A DNA stretch of 64,000 nucleotides, from positions 3,658,001 through 3,722,000 of the forward strand of contig NC_089449.1 of assembly GCF_026210795.1 (NCBI RefSeq), written 5' to 3'. The stretch is from Rhizophagus irregularis. Lineage: Eukaryota; Glomeromycota; Glomeromycetes; Glomerales; Glomeraceae. Under the pieces are notes generated by a model. The model saw only the letters and a program-made list of their open reading frames with translations. It was not told where the DNA came from and did no database searches. The first letter of the stretch is position 1; every line of letters begins with the position of its first letter. Shown here piece after piece: positions 23,831 through 60,967 of this stretch. The translations under genes and the position numbers were made by a program.

Positions 23831-24003
23831 TGTAGTATATAAGAGTGCATTAGTATTGGATTGAGAGTGTATTTGATAAAATGAGATGTTTATAGAAACT
23901 CTTTTTCAGATTGGCTATTACACTATAACGTAACGTCATAACGTGTAATAAGTACAATGAAAAAAGCCTTGATCATCATTTGTGATATTCTTTCATATTA
24001 CTA

Positions 24004-24525
24004 ATGTTTTTAACCATTCGATCTGGCGGCCAAACAGGTGTTGATAGGGCGACATTAGATGCTGCTTTGGATTACAATAATACTATCACAAAAGATAATG
24101 TAAAAAAGTCCTTCTTTATTCATGTCACCGGTTGGTGTCCGAAGGGACGGCTTGCGGAAGACGGTTCAATTTCATTACGATACCCACTCATTGAAACACC
24201 CACCTCATTATATTCTGAAAGAACAGAATGGAACATCCGGGATGCAGATGCCACTATGGTTCTGCTTTTGTCCACCACGACGCCACCTGATCATGGAACA
24301 AACTTTACAATTGAAAAGGCTAATCAACTTCAAAAACCATCAAAAATTATTTTTCTTGATGATAATATCATAACAAACATTAATGAGGTTCTTTATTGGA
24401 TAAATGTCAATAAAATCAAGACGCTAAACGTGGCTGGTTCAAGAGAAAGTAATTGTTCCGGAATTTACATCAAAGCATATGAATTCGTTAGTACCTTGTT
24501 GGAGAAAAGAAGGACAGAAGAATAA
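24004..24525 (+). CDS. SLOG-superfamily (cpYpsA / 'putative molybdenum carrier') protein
   Basis: An intronless frame of 173 residues. The N-terminus has SGGQTGVDRATLDAAL, the signature of the circularly permuted YpsA branch of the SLOG (SMF/DprA-LOG) fold. It is followed by TGWCPKGRLAEDG, RYPLIETPTSLYSERTEWNI, RDADATMVL and the closing LNVAGSRESNCSGIY. These are the conserved blocks of bacterial proteins annotated as 'putative molybdenum carrier'. The fold is a Rossmann-like nucleotide-binding one; the ligand is not established. All blocks are intact and the length matches the family. The gene stands alone between a kinase relic (ends 23830) and a gene-free stretch. Lack of introns in an intron-rich genome plus the bacterial-type family suggest acquisition by horizontal transfer (inference). 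Confidence 0.88.
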   Translation: MFLTIRSGGQTGVDRATLDAALDYNNTITKDNVKKSFFIHVTGWCPKGRLAEDGSISLRYPLIETPTSLYSERTEWNIRDADATMVLLLSTTTPPDHGTNFTIEKANQLQKPSKIIFLDDNIITNINEVLYWINVNKIKTLNVAGSRESNCSGIYIKAYEFVSTLLEKRRTEE

Positions 24526-28452: not shown

Positions 28453-31060
28453 ATGTTGTTAAACATACGTATATTATTATTGTTGTTATTAATACTTTCG
28501 CTTTTATCAATATTTTCTGTTGCTAAAAAGACTATTACGGATTTACTTTATGAAGATAAAAGATTTAGTAATTTAGTTAGAGCTTTACAACGTACTAGAA
28601 TTCTTCACGAAATTAATCGTTATGAATCTGCAACTTTATTCGCACCTGTAAATGAAGCTTTCGAGGACGACCCTCTTATGACCAGAGAACGTATGTTATA
28701 TCATTTTCTTATTGAAGAAATTAAAGGAGAAGAACTTAGGAAGAATGGTCTGCTGTTAAATACTCGTTTGAATATGGGAGAAAAACTTAATACACTTGGA
28801 CAAAAAGTTAAAGTTGAAGTTGAAAGTGATTCCAATATTGTCTATGTTGGTAATGGAAAAATTACAGAATTTGATAAAAAAGCAGATAACGGTGAGTGAA
28901 TTATAAAATTTTTTTTTTTAAAAATTTAAATTGTGACTAATTAAATATACATTACTTTATATGAATCAAAGGAATTATTCATGTAATCAATGGAGTGTTG
29001 GATACTCCTGTGGACTTATGTAAGTGATATATAACTTTTGATCGACTATTTTTAATTTATTAAATTGATTTTTATATTCTTGTAGATACAACTTTGACTT
29101 CTATGGATCAACTTACAGTTTTTTCTGATTATCTTCGTATGAGAAAATTAGATGATTATTTATCAAATGAAAATCATATTACTATATTTGCTCCAACTAA
29201 TGATGTCATAAAAAATCAATTAAAGTATCATGAAAGAGAGTATTTAATGGGAGAATGTGGTGGAGGTTTAGATGACTTGGATTTGTGGACTAAATATCAC
29301 TTACATAATGATAGAGTTTTATACTCCGATTCATTTGAAAATGGGAATACAAATGGTTTGAAATTATTCTATTGATTTTTTTTTATAAGAAAAAATAATT
29401 TTTATATTAATTTTCCTTTTCATATAGTACCTACGGTACAAGGGGAACCGATAAAGGTTGAAAAAGACGAACAAGGTAACATGCGTGTTGCTGGTGGAAA
29501 TGTAACTTTTAAAGATTTGTTGGCTGAAAATGGTACTAATTATTTAAATTTTAAACTTTAACTTTCCTTAACGTTATTATTATTAACATACTTTTTACTT
29601 TCATAATAGGTGTCATTCACGTTATTACTAATGTTGCAATACCAAAAGCTCTTCATTTCACAACACACAAGTACCTTTGTGGTTTGAAAGCTACAAAATT
29701 TGTAGCTTCAATTATAAAACATGGATTACAACATTATATAGAAGGTTCAAATGCATCATATACAATATTAGCGCCAAGAGATGATTCTTTAGATGAAAGT
29801 TTAACATTGAGATATCATATTTTAGAAGGGAAATATTTGCCTTCAGATTTAAAAGATGAAATGCTTGTTAAGTCTGAACTTAAAACTGAAGAATTAAGAA
29901 ATCATAGACAAAGAGCTATTGTAAATTTAGTTCAAAAATGGGATAATAATGATAATGAAAGTATTCAGAGAACTGAAATTCAATTCAATGGGATTGGTGT
30001 AGTTGGTGAACCTGTTGAAATCGGAAATGATATTATTTATATATTATCAAATACAATGACACCACCACAACCTATTATAAAAATTCTCAGTAATGATAAA
30101 CAATTGGCTTCAATGGGCACTTATATTATTATTAATAATATTGTACAGAAGGTTAGATCAGCTAAAGGTATTACAATGATCGCACCGTCTTCGGAAGCGT
30201 TTTCACAATTAGGATTAATTAATGCATATTTCTTACTTCATGAAGCAAAAGTTGATTTAAATTCCGTATTATTGCATCATATAATTAATGAAACAATATA
30301 TAGTGAAGATATAACAGATGAAAAAACATATTATACAATGGGTGGCGATCCAGTTAAAGTTTATAAGAAAGACAATGATATATTTGTTAGTAATGCAAAT
30401 TATACATCAAAAGTTAGTAGAAAAGATGTATTAACTTCAACAGGAGTATTACATGTACTTGACAAAGTTATATTTCCACCAACGTTACATATAACATTGG
30501 GTAAACTACTCAAAGGAATTAATGCTCAAACATTTTTAGAAATTGTTAAAGCGGCCAACTTAACTGACTTAGTACAAGATCCGTTAGAACCATATACAAT
30601 ATTAGCACCAACAGAAGGTGCATTTGAAAAAATTAATGTGACTAAGTTATTAGCAGATCCTGAGTTAGCAAGTAGATGGGCAAGATTGCATATAATACCA
30701 AAAAAATTGGATGAATTGAAGAATGGCGACGAAGTACCTACATTATTATCAAATGACGCTATATTAGTTATTAAAAAAGAGTTAGGAGGATCCTATTATA
30801 ATATCGAAATAAAAGGTTATTGGAGTTTTAAAGAAAAAGCTAAATTGTTAAGTAGCGGTAGAACTTGGAATGGTGGTGCTGTTTATGAAATTGATAAGGT
30901 ATTATTACCCGAACATGTTCAACAAATTGGTAGAACGTTTTCAGATATCATTATTGGTTTTGTATTATTCGGTTTTCTTGCTATGAGTGGTATTTATAGT
31001 TGGCACTTCTGGAATATTTGGAAAAGGGAAAATCAAGGCTATCGAGAAATCGAATCATAA
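28453..31060 (+). CDS. Fasciclin (FAS1)-domain membrane protein, five domains
   Basis: Exons 28453-28891, 28972-29019, 29086-29355, 29428-29532 and 29610-31060 sum to 2313 nt, giving 770 residues in one frame. Residues 1-24 are a signal peptide (IRILLLLLLILSLLSIFSVA). Five FAS1-like repeats follow, at about 28-165, 168-300, 310-445, 450-590 and 595-725. Each has an H1-type ATLFAPVNEAF / ITIFAPTNDVI / YTILAPRDDSL / ITMIAPSSEAF / YTILAPTEGAF motif, and most end with an H2-type GIIHVINGVLD / GVIHVITNVA / GVLHVLDKVIF block. A C-terminal transmembrane helix (about 735-758, DIIIGFVLFGFLAMSGIYSW) leaves a short basic cytosolic tail. FAS1 proteins mediate adhesion or cell-wall/membrane contacts. Several N-x-S/T sites fit a secreted topology. 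It ends convergently with PTPA, 463 bp away. Confidence 0.92.
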
Positions 31061-33278: not shown

Positions 33279-37114
<3,836 letters not shown>

Positions 37115-38359: not shown

Positions 38360-39201
38360 TTAAGATTCATTATCAGGATCACCACATTGTCCAATCCAAA
38401 TATCTGTGGAAGTTTTTCCACTGGATGAACCCAATTTCTCTATTTCTTGGACTACATCCATACCTAAACGAAAAAAAAAGATTAACAAAGAAAGAAAAGG
38501 AAACGTCAAGTTAAGGGAAGCTAATTAAAGGACACAAACCGTCTATAACGTGCCCAAAGACTACATGTTTGCCATCTAGCCAGGGAGTCTTAACAGTACA
38601 AATAAAGAATTGAGATCCATTGGTATTAGGACCAGCGTTAGCCATGGAAAGGATACCTGGTCCAGTGTGCTTCAAAGTAAAGTTTTCATCGGCAAATTTT
38701 TCACCATAGATTGACTTTCCGCCAGTACCATTTCCTTTAGTAAAATCACCCCCTTGAATCATAAATTGAGGTATAACTCGATGGAATTTGCATCCGTTGA
38801 AACCATATCCCTTTGCGTGAGTACACAAGGAATAAAAATTTTCCGCTGTAGATTTTGGTTTAAGACAAATTAGAAAGAGATATTTGTTAATGCACAAAAT
38901 GCGTAATTTTTTTTTTACCTGTTTTTGGAACAACATCCTTCCTAAGTTCAAATGTGATTTTCTAAAAAGAAATAATGCGTTTACTAGAGTGTAAATAGTG
39001 TAAATACAAAATAAGCTTAAAGTCAAAAAAATATCTTACACCCATCCACACCCCATCTTTCGAATTATTTATATCCCCCTTATAAACCTGAAAGTAAACT
39101 TTTGGATTTGCCATTGTTGACAGAGTTCTAAGAGAAGTAGTTTGTACAGTTCGTATAGCATTAAAAAAAGTAGAAGTGCGTAAAAAACATACACCAACCA
39201 T
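38360..39201 (-). CDS. Cyclophilin-type peptidyl-prolyl isomerase, mitochondrial/cytosolic
   Basis: Cyclophilins catalyse cis-trans isomerisation at Xaa-Pro bonds. Exons 39040-39201, 38919-38961, 38540-38845 and 38360-38463 (minus) sum to 615 nt, giving 204 residues. The single cyclophilin domain has [20 protein letters not shown] (catalytic Arg and Gln region), [16 protein letters not shown] and [17 protein letters not shown] with the cyclosporin-binding Trp. Residues 1-29 ([20 protein letters not shown]...) are Arg/Thr/Ser-rich and resemble a mitochondrial targeting sequence. Met30 ([10 protein letters not shown]) coincides with the usual cytosolic cyclophilin start. The C-terminal exon encodes [19 protein letters not shown]. 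An 85-bp piece of this exon is partly repeated just downstream at 38320-38345. The gene is convergent with AlaRS. Confidence 0.93.
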
Positions 39202-41827: not shown

Positions 41828-44800
41828 TCATTTAATGAGATTATCCAAGCATTCAACTAGATCTGTCGTATCATAACGTGCCTCTTTTGGCATCCCAACA
41901 AGTTTCAAAATTCCATCTACAATGACAAAAAATCTGAATGGCCACGGTGCGTACAATTTCAAAAAAGTATCATCCATTGTATCTGACAATACTGGTATTT
42001 CTAATTTGGTTTCTTTGACCATTTCGTGTGCAGCGGATAACCGATCAGTCAATGTGCGATGTTCCTTAACAGATACAACGTTACCAATAGGCCAAACATC
42101 AGATGCATGTGCTTCTCGAATCTGGATCATGTAAAAATCTATTTGTGTGTTATATCGATTATATATATCATTGAGTACATGTGATATATATCGGAATAAA
42201 GGACAAGTATATGATCCACCAAGAAGAACAATTGGTCGTCCCGGTTGACAAAGTGAACGTAATGAAATTATTGTTGGTGATTTGGTATCATCATTAAATG
42301 TAAAAGATTTTAATGGAACTAATGAGCAATCAGGTGCCATCATTCCTTCAGTGAGATTTCCAATATTAGCAATATTGTTGCGAACATATACTTGAGTTTT
42401 ATTAAATTCAGGATCATCTTAATAAAAGAAATTTGATATTAACAACTCTTTTATAACTTATCAGAAAAGTTTGAGAATCGTATGCACTTTCTTTACCTGG
42501 ATAAAGTTGTGGTGCACGTCGTAATAATTGTACTGCCTCATCTGAATAGCCAAATTCTCTAACTAATTCATGTTGCATTTGGTCTGTAACATCCATCCAG
42601 TCTTTGCCAAATGTAGGATCGCTCCCAACTTCATAATACCGTTTTTGTATTTTAGGTGAAAATCTTCGCTTCTCTTCTTCACGTAACAAGGTTAACAAAT
42701 CTTCTTTCTTGGTTGGAAGTATTGGGGAGATGGTAATATCGGCAGCAGAAAGATCTTTTGGAATTTCCTTTGAATCTTCCTTTGAATCTGAGGGATTCAA
42801 AAATACCAGAAAATGATGTTGCACGTTATGAAGCAAATTAGAAATTGCGATACATTCAAAGCACAAATCGTAATCAGGGCACTCTGAACATTTATATCTT
42901 TATATAAGGAAAGTAGAATTGTATTAGCAAAAAAAACAAAATTGATTAGCAGTATTTACAGTGGATATTAACCTTGCTCCTTTCCATTCACTCTTACCAC
43001 AATAATTACAAGCAATACCAGCATGAACTCCATCTTGTAAGCGTTCTTCAATTGTTTGCATGTATTGTGTGAGTGATGGCAATGCATCAAATTCTTTGCG
43101 ACCACTAGTTTCTTGAAACATCCCACCACGTAGTCTAAGTACAAGATGCAACGTAGACTCTTCTTGAATATTATAATCTGATAAAGTTTTTCCATCCTCC
43201 AATTGCTTACCAGCAAAAATAATACGTTGCTGGTCAGGAGGAATGCCTTCTTTTTTCTCGACCTTAGATTTAATCATATCAATAGTGTCGCTTGAATCAA
43301 AATCTAGGATAACTGTTTTTCCGGTCAATGTTTTCACAAAAATTTCCCTTTTATACGCTTTATACTGCCGAATTATTGTCAATGACAACGTGGATCCTTC
43401 GGTGATACCATAATGTAACAGAGTTTCCCAGTTATTCAAAGTCTTATTAAAAAAAATGAGCTGTTGATTTGCAATTGGGGTGCCTTCCTTATCTCGAACC
43501 TTTTGCTTAACCTGACCGATTGTGTCAATTACTTCTACTTCCAGGTCGATTGTTTCTCCGTTAAATATTTTCACATAGATCGTTATTAATTTACATTCTA
43601 AATTCAATGTGGACCCTTTTTTGATATTATAATACGACAAGGTATGAGCGTTATATAATTGCCTGCCATCAAAAATAAGACATTGTTGGTCAAGAGGAAT
43701 GTTTTCTTCACTTTGAATCTTTTGTTTAATCTGTTTGACAGTGTCACTTGTATCTGCTTTCAATTCTAAGGTTTTTCTGGTCTTGGTTATTACAACATGG
43801 ATTACTGATTTAATTTCTAATTGTAATATGGATTCTTCTCGGATATTATAATATGATAAATTATAATCTTCATACAATTGCATACCGGCAAAAGTAAGGC
43901 TTGTAACACGGGGAGGATACCTTCTTTATCTTGAATCTTTTGTTTAATCTGGTCAATAGTATCAATTATCTCTACTTCCAAATCTATTTTTTTTCCATTA
44001 TTTATTTCACATAGATTATCATTGTTTTACATTCTAAATGTAATGTGGACTCATCTTCGATGTTGTAATCTAACAAGGTGTACTCGTCATACAATTGTCT
44101 GTCAGTAAAAATAAGACGTTGATGGTTAAGAGGAATGCCTTTTCTATCCTGGATATTCTGTTTAATTTGGCTGATAGTGTCACTTGTCACTACATTTAAT
44201 ATTATTTCTTCACCGGTCCGTTTGGTTTTCACATAAATTTTTGCTTTAAATTCTAGATACAATGTAGACCATTTTTGAATATTGTAATATGATAAGGTTT
44301 CAGAGCCACTTAATTCTTTTTCTGCAAAACTAATTCGTTGTATGCGAGGAGGAACGCCTTTTAAATTCTGAATCATTTCTTTAATCTGTTCGACGGTGTC
44401 ACTCCAGTTTACTTTTAATTCTATTGTTTTTTCAGTCATTGATTCAACGTATATTGTCATTGAGCTTCTTGGAGTAATTGATAACGAAGGAAGTTTCACA
44501 CTCGAATTTTCACAATCACTATATATTGCCTCAACTAAATCTCCTTCCTAAGGTTAAGCATGAACAATTCATAGCATACACATAAAAAAAAGAACCCTTT
44601 TTAATCAAGCGCAGTCTCGTAAACATTTACAGGACCTAGACAAATACCTTAATTCCTAGCATTTCAAGCGTATCTACAAACTGTATATCCTTTTCAAGGT
44701 ATATAAGCTTATGATGATTGTGATTATACATACGAGCTTGGAAGTTCCTCAACAATATCTCTCCAGTAGTTTGTGCGGTCACATTTACTACATATACGGA

Positions 44801-44866
44801 ATCTGAAGGACATTTAAGACGGATAGGGAAAATTGGAACAGAGTCAAGCACGGTAGTGAAACGCAT
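41828..44866 (-). CDS. Ubiquitin-repeat / ZZ zinc-finger / deiodinase-like fusion protein
   Basis: Exons (minus) are 44648-44866, 42973-44545, 42497-42897 and 41828-42417. Exon 1 encodes a diverged N-terminal domain (73 residues). Exon 2 encodes six ubiquitin-like repeats of about 70-76 residues. Five are diverged, with recognisable IYVK...I.QIKQ.IQ..KGIP..QQ.L.F and L.YYNI...STL. The sixth is near-canonical ubiquitin ([39 protein letters not shown]) followed by MFQE. A ZZ zinc finger comes next ([16 protein letters not shown] spliced to [15 protein letters not shown]...HNVQHH). The last exon is an iodothyronine-deiodinase-type thioredoxin fold ([39 protein letters not shown]), with Cys (TGT, 42203-42205) where animal deiodinases have Sec. 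Two single-base frame losses break the fourth ubiquitin-like repeat (43900-44015), so the upstream repeats may be cut off. From 43883 downstream all exons are in one frame. Confidence 0.8.
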
Positions 44867-53736: not shown

Positions 53737-54481
53737 TCTGCGAATGGAAATTTTTTTTATTTATTTGTATTATTATATTTGTATTTATTAAATATATTTC
53801 ATAATTCATGTATAATTAAATATTATTTAAAATGGGCAATTATTATTGTTTTACTGTATTTCCATTTTAATTGGCTTGTAGTAGATTTGTAATTATTTCG
53901 AATACCCCTAAGCCCCTGATCTAGTTAAATTTTGGACATAGTCAGATTTGGATTGATTGTTTCATATATTTCAAGTAAGAATCTTTTAAGAGTGACTATC
54001 GAGTAAGATCTTGAAGAATATATGTGCCCCAGATTAATTACTATATAAGGAACGTATCTTTAGTATAGTGCTTGATACCTACCAACAATATTCCGACAGT
54101 ATTACAGATTCGTAAATTTGGTTTATTATTAGTGCTGGAGGAATTATAATAGCCGGATAATATTCTTAATTACGCGTAAGAGATCCTGACTCAAATAAAA
54201 TACGCTGATTATTTTAACCCCTAATAAAATTATGAAATTATCGCTAAATCTGTGAATTTTGTAATGGATCATAATTATTGTAAATTTTATAATTTTTTTA
54301 ACGTTAATCGGGGATTCCCTTACTTTGTGACATATTTTCCCCCAATCATTTGTTACGTATTTACGTGAATCATTGTGTATAAATTAAAATGTAGTATTAC
54401 ATTTAATAAATTGCTTCTTTTTTTACGCAGAATTAAGTTTTTCTTAAGTAAACTCCTTTCATTATTTATCACTCATTATTC
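53737..54481. other. Intergenic region, no gene seen
   Basis: Unique AT-rich sequence between two plus-strand genes; no repeat or RNA recognised. Confidence 0.4.
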
Positions 54482-55576
54482 ATGATGAATTTAACTACGA
54501 AGTTATTTTTAATTTTATTATTATTACCCTTCTTTAATGATAATTCATTGGTGACCGGACAGGTTAAAGATATTGGCAGTAAACAAAATGGCAATACCAG
54601 ATATCTTGCTGGATTATTGACATTATTATTATCATTAATCATATGTTTTTGCTGTTGTCGACATCGTAAATATACTATTATAGGTAATAATATTATACCT
54701 GTTAGAAGTTCTCCTGTCAACACTTATACTATGGATACTAGAGCAAATGCTTCGTCTAATTTATCACAAAGCAATCAACCACATCATTTTTCACAACCTA
54801 TACAACCCCCGCCTCCATACACTGTTATAAATATCACCTCAAGAAGTGGTCCATCACCGGCTGAAATACGTGAAGCTGCTGAAAAATTTACAAGCGATAA
54901 TCCACCAAAAGATGATTTACCAACTCTTGAACAAATTGCTAATATAAGAACACTTGGAGGTGTAAAAGCATGGCAATTTACTTCCCAAGAAAATTCTTAC
55001 AGAAGTAAAATAGTATCAGTTACTAATGATGGAAAAAATATTAAATTTTTAAAAAATCTTGATTGTAATATTCAGACAAATTATCCTTATTTTGTTCCTA
55101 TCATTGAAGGTGATAATAATCTTAATAATCTTAAAGATGTTAGAATATTACATTATTTTGAAATTACTATTATTGAAAATAATGATCCTTATAATGCTGA
55201 TATTGCTATCGGGTTAACTACAAAACCTTATCCAGAATTTAGATTACCTGGTTTAAATTTATATTCTGTTGGTTATCATTCCGTTAATGGTAAAAAATAT
55301 AATGATAATGATATAGGTATTGATTATGGTCCTAATTGGACAGAAGTTGGTATTACTATTGGTTGTGGTTATGATTCTAATAATGGTAATGTTTTCTTTA
55401 CCAAAAATGGCCAATTTTTAGGCAATGCTTTTACTAATTTAAAACATATTTGGTTTCCAACTATTGGTGCTAAAGGTCTTTGTACTATTGAAATCAATTT
55501 TGGAGATAATGAATTTTTATATAAAGATGCTAGAGGTTATAATCCTAGTGGGCTTAATGCAAATAGTAATCAGTAA
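54482..55576 (+). CDS. SPRY-domain membrane protein, Ssh4/Ear1-like Rsp5 adaptor
   Basis: An intronless frame of 364 residues. An N-terminal hydrophobic segment (about 6-18, signal peptide or anchor) is followed by a clear transmembrane helix at about 41-59 (YLAGLLTLLLSLIICFCCC) and a basic RHRK stop-transfer. A PPxY motif lies at 109-113 (PPPPY). A SPRY domain spans about 165-345, with VRILHYFEITIIEN, IAIGLTTKPYPEFRLPG, SVGYHSVNGKKY, GCGYDSNNGNVFFTKNGQ and FPTIGAKG. This combination matches yeast Ssh4 and Ear1, endosomal/vacuolar adaptors that recruit the HECT ligase Rsp5 through PPxY and sort membrane cargo. The absence of introns is unusual here but the frame is intact. ATG codons at 54482 and 54485 are both possible starts. 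Confidence 0.85.
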   Translation: MMNLTTKLFLILLLLPFFNDNSLVTGQVKDIGSKQNGNTRYLAGLLTLLLSLIICFCCCRHRKYTIIGNNIIPVRSSPVNTYTMDTRANASSNLSQSNQPHHFSQPIQPPPPYTVINITSRSGPSPAEIREAAEKFTSDNPPKDDLPTLEQIANIRTLGGVKAWQFTSQENSYRSKIVSVTNDGKNIKFLKNLDCNIQTNYPYFVPIIEGDNNLNNLKDVRILHYFEITIIENNDPYNADIAIGLTTKPYPEFRLPGLNLYSVGYHSVNGKKYNDNDIGIDYGPNWTEVGITIGCGYDSNNGNVFFTKNGQFLGNAFTNLKHIWFPTIGAKGLCTIEINFGDNEFLYKDARGYNPSGLNANSNQ

Positions 55577-59142: not shown

Positions 59143-60967
59143 TCATTTTAAAGCATTAATACCAGCGGATTTTAATTCAGGTTTACCATTGATAACTGGT
59201 AATTTAAAGAAAACACTAACAAATTCTTGTTTATTGGTTTTCCTTTCACTTGCCTTTTGTCTTTGCCTTTCTTCAATGATTTGCTTTTCTTTTGTTGCTT
59301 TAGCATAATCTTTTGAGAATAAAGCAGAACTAACGGGTTGCCAAACTTTTCTTGATTCAAGTGGACCTTGCTGAGAAAGTGGTTTTACTTGCTTTGGAAC
59401 AGCTTCCAGCTTTTCCATGTCAAGTAATAATCGGGACACCTAATTAATTAAGAGAGTTTAAAGTAAGATATTTATGCGGAATGATATGTAATTTGCTAAA
59501 ACACTACTACTTACTTTAGTATCACATCTTGTTACATGTACTTGACCTCTCCAACTTCCAGTAATTTCAGCAACGACATTATGATCATTAACATTTTTTA
59601 ATTTATTAATATCATCATTCTTCGGATCATACTTGAAAATTTTTCCTTCGAAAGCAAACTTTGGTTTACCAAGCCATTTCTACAATATAAAAATTTTTCG
59701 ATCAACTTTCACGAATTAATCTTAATTATGCGAGAATGCGAATGAAATAATATTTTAATATTTCATACCTCTTCTTTGTATTCAATAATCGCCTTTAACT
59801 TAGTCTTAGGACATGTAACAATACAAGATTCACCTACTGCAATATATAATGAAGCTTTTAACCATCCTTGTACCAAAGCAACAGGATGTGTTAATAAATA
59901 TTCTTCATTATCTCTTTTATCTAAATTAATATAAATTCCTTTATTTTGTTCTCCTGGACCAATTTTAACAGAAGTTCCAGTAAATTTAGCATAAATTTGA
60001 TCAATTCCGTAAGCTGAAACACCTTTCTCCTCACATTGATAATAAAATGCTGATACAGGAGGATGATGAGAAATTTGTTCATTTATGCAAGTTACTCGAT
60101 ATTTTTGGTTCCCATTTGATATTCCTGATAAATTTGATTCTCTATCATCAATAAAATTTCCTTTATTATCAAAATTTGGAGAAGTTACATCCCAATGACA
60201 TGAAAATTGTTCACCAAGAATTGAATTATATGGTTTTACCAATTTTCCTTTCTATTAAAAATCGAAGAGAGTAAAAATTTGCATCAAACGAAGAAAGAAG
60301 AAAAATAAAAATATGATGAATGATAACTTACCACATATTTTAAGTCTTTGGAAAACCACCAACGAATTGATGCAAGCATTCTTTCTAATGGATCATCTGA
60401 ATCTCCAATGCTAAAAGAATCAATCAGATCAAAGAAAAAATTAGCATAATCATAATAATTGAGAAAATGAAACCTAAGCAACAATTACCAAACAAAATAA
60501 TCTGGTCTATCATTATAATTCCAATATTCCAAATTTCCAATAGGCTCAAGGAGCTGTGCAGGAAGTGAAATACGTCTAAAAATTCATTAAAATTAGCGTT
60601 AAGATTCTAATAAATAATGACAAATTTCATCATCAATAAATGATACATACAAAGAAACGATATCTTTCACTCCAATAAAATTTTTTAATAAACCAGATAA
60701 AGTTTTGAATTTACTCTGATGTTCATCATAATCATTTTCCTCAAGATGAAGTGAAGTTGTTATCCTCCTATGTCTTTCAGAGATAAGATGATCAAGAGTT
60801 TTATCATTTATTTCAGTTGAATCTAGATCCATTTCCAATGTTGATAATGATGTATTTTCTGTTGAAATAGTCATAGTTTCGTCTTTAGAACTTCTTGATG
60901 AATCTTTAGACGATTCATAATCTGAAGAAACAACTGAATCTAATGTTAATGTCGAATTTGCTGCCAT
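59143..60967 (-). CDS. Oxysterol-binding-protein-related (ORP/Osh) lipid transfer protein
   Basis: Osh/ORP proteins carry sterols or phosphatidylserine against PI4P between membranes. Exons 60651-60967, 60489-60575, 60332-60410, 59769-60251, 59515-59679 and 59143-59439 (minus) sum to 1428 nt, giving 475 residues. Residues 1-60 are Ser/Thr/Asp-rich and disordered. The ORD covers about 75-470: the lid/entry region RISLPAQLLEPIGNLEYWNY, LVKPYNSILGEQFSCHW, the family signature EQISHHPP at about 219-226 (PI4P-binding histidines), and a C-terminal helix KEKQIIEERQRQKASERK. There is no PH domain, ankyrin repeats or FFAT motif, so it is a short-type family member. The subfamily (Osh4 versus Osh6/7) cannot be fixed by eye. 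Confidence 0.94.

Follow-up and report, generated by a model that had tools for sequence, protein, structure and literature searches.

In the genome of the fungus Rhizophagus irregularis, a single gene joins a head of ubiquitin-like (UBL) repeats, a last ubiquitin unit ending in LRGG directly before a Met residue, a ZZ zinc finger, a conserved middle domain and a Cys-type deiodinase/peroxiredoxin-like domain. The gene lies in the window, the whole stretch of 64,000 nucleotides that was analysed, and belongs to a family with several copies in the genome. It may well encode a ubiquitin-fusion precursor that is cut at the Gly-Gly/Met junction to release a ZZ-targeted thiol redox enzyme, a reading for which, from the sequence features described below, the chances appear about evenly balanced. 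The most familiar ubiquitin-fusion precursors carry ribosomal proteins, and deiodinases are chiefly known as selenoenzymes of animals. Their union in one fungal gene family suggests a means, dependent on ubiquitin, of producing or positioning a thiol redox enzyme, and raises the questions of whether the GG/M junction is cut, what the ligand of the ZZ finger is and what role a deiodinase fold plays without thyroid hormone.

Gene structure and domain organisation

The window copy is a four-exon gene on the minus strand, extending from 44866 to 41828, and its three introns are all of the GT..AG type (Table 1). The splice junctions 42973/42897 and 42497/42417, which had been proposed from the letters of the DNA alone, proved to be correct, as did their coordinates. 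The UBL match of exon 1 is weak; a counterpart of this exon was modelled in the copies L023, L024, L025 and L027, while none was identified in L026. The Pfam ubiquitin family was matched by the two main repeat frames with E-values of 1.5e-71 and 7.8e-38, and the six units recognised by Pfam, together with the weak N-terminal UBL-like exon, agree with the "at least six" ubiquitin-like repeats of the original prediction. The ZZ finger predicted there is likewise present, the spliced protein matching PF00569 at 40.8 bits against a cut-off of 21.4 (E 2e-10), and ZZ was above the cut-off in all five spliced proteins scanned (L026, in which ZZ is broken, was left out). The last exon matches the T4_deiodinase family (PF00837) at 89.1 bits against a cut-off of 27 (E 3.6e-25). 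These domain matches of the window copy are far above chance. The middle domain encoded by exon 3 gave no match above the cut-off in the Pfam scan, and a PHROGs search of the fungal copies returned one weak match, in one of the six.

Table 1. Coordinates of the features of the window copy, of neighbouring genes in the window and of other places in the genome
Feature	Position	Strand	Remarks
Exon 1	window 44648..44866	-	Start ATG 44866; weak N-terminal UBL-like unit
Exon 2	window 42973..44547	-	Five UBL repeats, then near-ubiquitin, linker and first half of ZZ; frame breaks in third repeat
Exon 3	window 42497..42897	-	Second half of ZZ and conserved middle domain
Exon 4	window 41828..42417	-	Deiodinase-fold domain (PF00837); stop codon 41830-41828
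First Pfam-recognised ubiquitin-like unit	window 44454-44245	-	
Second unit	window 44238-44026	-	
Third unit	window 44002-43892	-	Partial match only
Fourth unit	window 43787-43590	-	
Fifth unit	window 43580-43374	-	
Sixth unit (last ubiquitin)	window 43343-43128	-	Leu8, Ile44, His68 and Val70 kept
Gly-Gly/Met junction	window 43119..43127	-	Candidate deubiquitinase cleavage point
ZZ zinc finger	window 42811..43016, limits approximate	-	Split by intron 2 (42972-42898)
Catalytic-position Cys codon (TGT)	window 42203..42205	-	Equivalent to Sec170 of Dio3
Circularly permuted YpsA SLOG family protein	window 23986-24525	+	PF12694, E 8.1e-50
Fasciclin domain gene	window 29555-31060	+	Pfam
Class II (Ala) tRNA synthetase domain gene	window 34125-34811	+	Pfam
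Cyclophilin domain gene	window 38511-39035	-	Pfam
SPRY domain gene	window 54452-55576	+	Pfam
Oxysterol-binding protein domain gene	window 59763-60251	-	Pfam
Ubiquitin-AN1 fusion	L034:2058-2513	+	Ubiquitin ending LRLRGG fused to AN1 zinc finger (Pfam)
Two-unit ubiquitin-like protein	L049:2480-2956	-	159 aa
Cluster of weak ZZ-part matches	G000 C3:3755149-3837637		Away from the deiodinase copies

The gene family and the frame breaks of the window copy

The search of the genome with PF00837 identified six places, all of them over the cut-off, and ubiquitin-like sequence lies upstream in every one of these deiodinase-bearing copies. The domain order is the same in the window copy and the five others, with ZZ broken in L026. 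Complete four-exon open frames are found in L023 (731 aa), L024 (726 aa) and L025 (734 aa). Since the same order recurs and three copies are fully open, the fusion is not an artefact. The assembled sequences of the other three copies are not intact, with frame breaks in the window copy, one frame break in the last exon of L027, which is open up to that point, and one ubiquitin and the broken ZZ in L026. L028 and L029 are debris, the former without a match to the ubiquitin part. When the linker plus ZZ was used as a query on the genome, the start of the linker was matched only in the copies of the family; the weaker matches, located on C3, C18 and C27 and including a cluster on C3 (Table 1), are to the ZZ part.

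In the phylogenetic tree, the fungal copies form one group with support of 100/100, within which the window copy, L026 and L027 are split from L023-L025 at 82/98, and the placement of the fungal group among the prokaryotic and animal sequences rests on a poorly supported central split (22/31). L024 and L025 adjoin each other, about 12 kb apart, and their pS is about 0.05-0.20 in the ZZ-deiodinase half and about 0.10-0.40 in the repeat half, a pattern that would fit homogenisation of the 3' half.

In the window copy, the third repeat is spread across three reading frames, a feature absent from the original prediction, and the stretch between 44866 and 41828 is therefore not covered by one continuous frame. 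Once spliced, the sequence is open for 633 aa between the ATG at 43883 and the stop, across both downstream introns. The breaks may be assembly errors or decay. The genome analysed comprises 146,748,485 bases in 32 contigs, and is presumably the published assembly of R. irregularis DAOM197198, described as 32 scaffolds and 146,773,001 bp built from nanopore data, with QV 36.27 after polishing (PMC10234402), which by our own arithmetic corresponds to about one error per 4 kb. If the two assemblies are the same, the breaks are not readable as decay with confidence.

There is nevertheless an appreciable minority chance that the window copy is a pseudogene undergoing decay and that the intact paralogs alone matter, as its broken third repeat and the presence in the same genome of the debris L028 and L029 and of the ZZ-broken L026 would suggest. 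This reading has to be set against the error rate of the published assembly, which, if it is the one analysed, suffices for such breaks (PMC10234402), against the 633-aa frame that remains open, and against the purifying constraint on the 3' half, where dN/dS between the window copy and L027 is 0.12-0.24, a few frame-shifted residues of L027 slightly raising its differences.

The Gly-Gly/Met junction and selective constraint

The LRGG/M sequence is present in all seven places that hold the junction, including the debris L029, with synonymous differences among them, and the internal repeats that were scored are not followed by Gly-Gly. A near-ubiquitin unit with LRGG stands directly before the cargo in the window copy, L026 and L027, whose last units share 79-83% identity with ubiquitin across 70-71 aligned residues. 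Leu8 and Ile44 are kept in all three; His68 and Val70 are kept in the window copy and L027 and are replaced in L026. In the window copy, the last ubiquitin shares 55 of 70 aligned residues with the genome's own ubiquitin, ends in LRLRGG/M and is directly followed by [13 protein letters not shown]. In L023, L024 and L025, the last ubiquitin is without its core and retains the tail TLHLVLxLRGG/M. A single-sequence fold of the last ubiquitin with the linker reached a pLDDT of 45 and was of no use.

Across five copies (L026 left out, and the differences of L027 slightly raised by a few frame-shifted residues), dN/dS is 0.06-0.35 in the linker, ZZ, middle and deiodinase segments, whereas the repeat head of these copies, in which the alignment is less sure, has dN of 0.20-0.67 and dS of 0.33-1.31, a ratio of about 0.38-0.76; in one other analysis the end of L027 past its frame break was left out. 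Strong purifying selection acts on the part from ZZ through the middle domain to the deiodinase domain, and the repeat array evolves much faster yet is open. Among L023-L025, the repeats have pN of 0.20-0.22 against pS of 0.23-0.26. The arrays of L023 and L024 are separated by 118 non-synonymous differences with both frames open; stop-making changes amount to 6-8% of the number of non-synonymous ones (ratio 0.06-0.08), so about eight stops would be expected between these two arrays without constraint. In comparisons among L023-L025, the tail of the last ubiquitin shows increased constraint, and conservation of the tail beyond that of the array is clear in one of the three pairs (P 0.003, 0.08 and 0.11).

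By its sequence, the encoded protein consists of a UBL head without internal Gly-Gly, a last unit ending in LRGG, and then Met, ZZ, the middle domain and the Cys-type deiodinase/peroxiredoxin-like domain, an arrangement that would make it a ubiquitin-fusion precursor. Deubiquitinases are described as processing the ubiquitin-ribosomal protein precursors (PMC4522658), and here too they would be expected to cleave after Gly-Gly; the deubiquitinase families PF01088 and PF00443 have matches over the cut-off in the same genome. The predicted products are a ZZ-deiodinase-fold enzyme starting at Met and a head of several UBLs whose LRGG end is free, and the released thiol redox enzyme would be positioned by ZZ on a protein target, with no action on thyroid hormone. 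A regulatory or delivery role of ubiquitin, as originally envisaged, is possible, and the conserved LRGG/M points rather to a cleavable precursor. The proposed cleavage is weakest for L023-L025, as the loss of the ubiquitin core makes ordinary recognition of folded ubiquitin doubtful in these three copies.

The main rival is a scaffold that is not cleaved at all, in which the UBL array would tether the redox domain to ubiquitin receptors, the proteasome or p97-type machinery, while ZZ would read a degron or a histone-like tail. The scored internal UBLs, with no Gly-Gly after them, would indeed stay joined to each other, the truncated last ubiquitin of L023-L025 would hinder cleavage, and the arrays of L023 and L024 stay open despite the stops expected; however, an uncleaved linker would not need the LRGG/M that is kept wherever the junction is found, and the near-neutral evolution of the array in L023-L025 is unlike that of a binding surface with fixed partners. 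A permanent scaffold is considered somewhat unlikely. Rather more doubtful is a dual-product precursor, in which one transcript would give, in a fixed ratio, a multi-unit UBL modifier whose LRLRGG end is usable, together with a Cys-based deiodinase-fold enzyme guided by ZZ, the modifier half diversifying between copies and the enzyme half remaining constant.

The deiodinase-fold domain

A profile search of solved structures with E-values up to 1 matched only Dio3 (E 9.6e-17) and Dio2 (6.3e-13). A fold model of the domain, for which 14 of the 26 prokaryotic rows described below were used (11 with TGA, and L066, were left out), has a pLDDT of 87.2, and its top two solved matches in Foldseek are mouse Dio2 (E 4.9e-16) and Dio3 (1.9e-14), followed by the next at 4.6e-8; the lower-ranked matches include ResA-like and 1-Cys peroxiredoxin folds. 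Profile and fold thus both bear out the placement of the last exon in the deiodinase family that had been suggested.

With the Dio3 residue positions mapped by counting on the profile alignment, the equivalents of Ser167, Thr169, Sec170 (as Cys), Glu200, His202, Trp207, His219 and Arg225 are kept; the roles of the Dio3 catalytic residues have been described (PMC7506546). Glu200, His202 and His219 equivalents, together with Cys at 170, are kept in all six fungal copies aligned, and the catalytic codon is no in-frame TGA, being TGT in the window copy and encoding Cys in each of the six. The position of Tyr197 is occupied by Gln in the six fungal copies and by Tyr in Dio3 and in all 26 prokaryotic loci. 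At the position of Arg275 of Dio3, Pro is found in the two fungal rows reaching that far; Dio1 and Dio2 are also reported to be without this Arg (PMC7506546), so it is no test of the family and weighs little.

From these residues, a thiol redox activity is expected, and deiodination of thyroid hormone is unlikely because all six copies replace the Tyr needed by Dio3. It is very improbable that the protein is a reductive dehalogenase in the true sense, acting on iodinated phenols like the deiodinases of animals: membership of the family and the retained Glu200, His202 and His219 equivalents would fit this, but Sec is replaced by Cys, the Tyr197 position, at which a change to Phe is reported to inactivate Dio3 (PMC7506546), carries Gln throughout, and Pro at the Arg275 position counts, if slightly, in the same direction.

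Prokaryotic and viral relatives

A contig scan with the deiodinase core and the mouse Dio3 row led to 26 confirmed relatives from 72 candidate matches; a scan that used the 379-aa part gave 116 pattern matches and no confirmed relative, the patterns probably being suited to the fungal copies only. The relatives comprise 25 bacterial loci and one archaeal locus, with 30-39% identity in the best segment. The statement of the original prediction that deiodinases are known from animals and scattered protists is therefore too narrow, and bacterial deiodinase-like selenoproteins had already been published (PMC2398784). The catalytic codon is TGA, with the frame continuing after it as in selenoproteins, in 11 of the 26 loci (L059-L063, L068, L069, L071-L073 and L076) and Cys in the other 15.

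A six-frame search of the 26 loci with the fungal profiles at E 0.01 gave no UBL or middle-domain match, while the four fungal loci used as controls all matched the UBL, ZZ and middle profiles. The sole ZZ-profile match among the prokaryotic loci, in L066, is marginal (E 0.005) and probably due to chance. Pfam scans of ten of the 26 loci (L059 only up to its TGA) found no ubiquitin and no ZZ. L059, L064 and L066 encode bacterial deiodinase-like proteins with EF-hands, and the 1089-aa frame of L066 also has an amidohydrolase.

A viral origin was rejected, as two scans of viral contigs confirmed no relative. The fold search also matched a short BFVD entry, A0A3G4ZQR0 of Terrestrivirus, named iodothyronine deiodinase, with 36% identity over 101 columns; it is no closer to the fungal domain than the prokaryotic relatives are.

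Neighbouring genes and other ubiquitin fusions

That two separate neighbouring genes have been misread as one is scarcely credible and was rejected: the Met exactly at the junction might represent a former start codon or an alternative one, but the ubiquitin tail and the linker lie in the same exon as the first half of ZZ, ZZ itself is split by intron 2, and other copies, whose introns have diverged, show the same arrangement, all of which supports the original assignment of the ubiquitin, ZZ and redox parts to one gene. The other genes recognised in the window are listed in Table 1.

Elsewhere in the genome, L034 had been taken by eye for a ubiquitin-S27a fusion, an assignment that was rejected on the Pfam result (Table 1). 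A second ubiquitin-fusion family comprises L035, L037, L038, L040, L041, L043 and L044, which by eye have one ubiquitin-like unit, with an RGG end in some, and share a common C-terminal domain, most of them also having a similar N-terminal stretch; in the two scanned with Pfam, L035 and L037, only ubiquitin-type families were matched. L049 encodes two ubiquitin-like units ending in RLHGG with a short tail, reminiscent of tandem UBL modifiers. A search of the genome for Peptidase_C97 gave two places.

Comparison with known systems

Each of the modules is known and the combination appears to be new, although no claim of a first report is made: no combination of ubiquitin, ZZ and deiodinase was described among the PMC matches listed, which covered titles and the openings of abstracts, with most subscription papers outside their scope. 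Fusion to ubiquitin as such is not unusual in this genome, in view of its other ubiquitin fusions such as L034.

Like UBA52 and UBA80, the fungal gene has a ubiquitin ending in LRLRGG in frame with an unrelated C-terminal protein (PMC4522658); unlike them, it has diverged UBLs before the last ubiquitin, its cargo is ZZ with a redox enzyme, and in three copies the last ubiquitin is truncated. The ubiquitin-AN1 gene L034 of the same genome resembles it in joining a ubiquitin ending in LRLRGG to a zinc-finger cargo, and differs in having one ubiquitin, Gly after GG and no redox domain. With Dio2 and Dio3 (PF00837; PDB 9h48 and 4tr3), the fungal protein shares the profile, the fold and the Ser-x-Thr-Cys, Glu-Ala-His and His-Arg motifs, whereas it has Cys for Sec, Gln for Tyr197 and the fused ubiquitin and ZZ.

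The prokaryotic deiodinase-like proteins (NF038285; L051-L076) are related to the fungal domain at the level of identity given above and have a GSYTC or GSYT-TGA active site in many cases; they differ in that none of the 26 matched the fungal UBL or middle profiles and in the EF-hands of some, and the NF038285 profile itself scores 76 bits on the fungal domain against a cut-off of 250. In ISG15 and similar tandem UBL modifiers, several UBLs stand in a row with one terminal LRLRGG; compared with modifiers of this type, the fungal gene has up to six units and a cargo attached.
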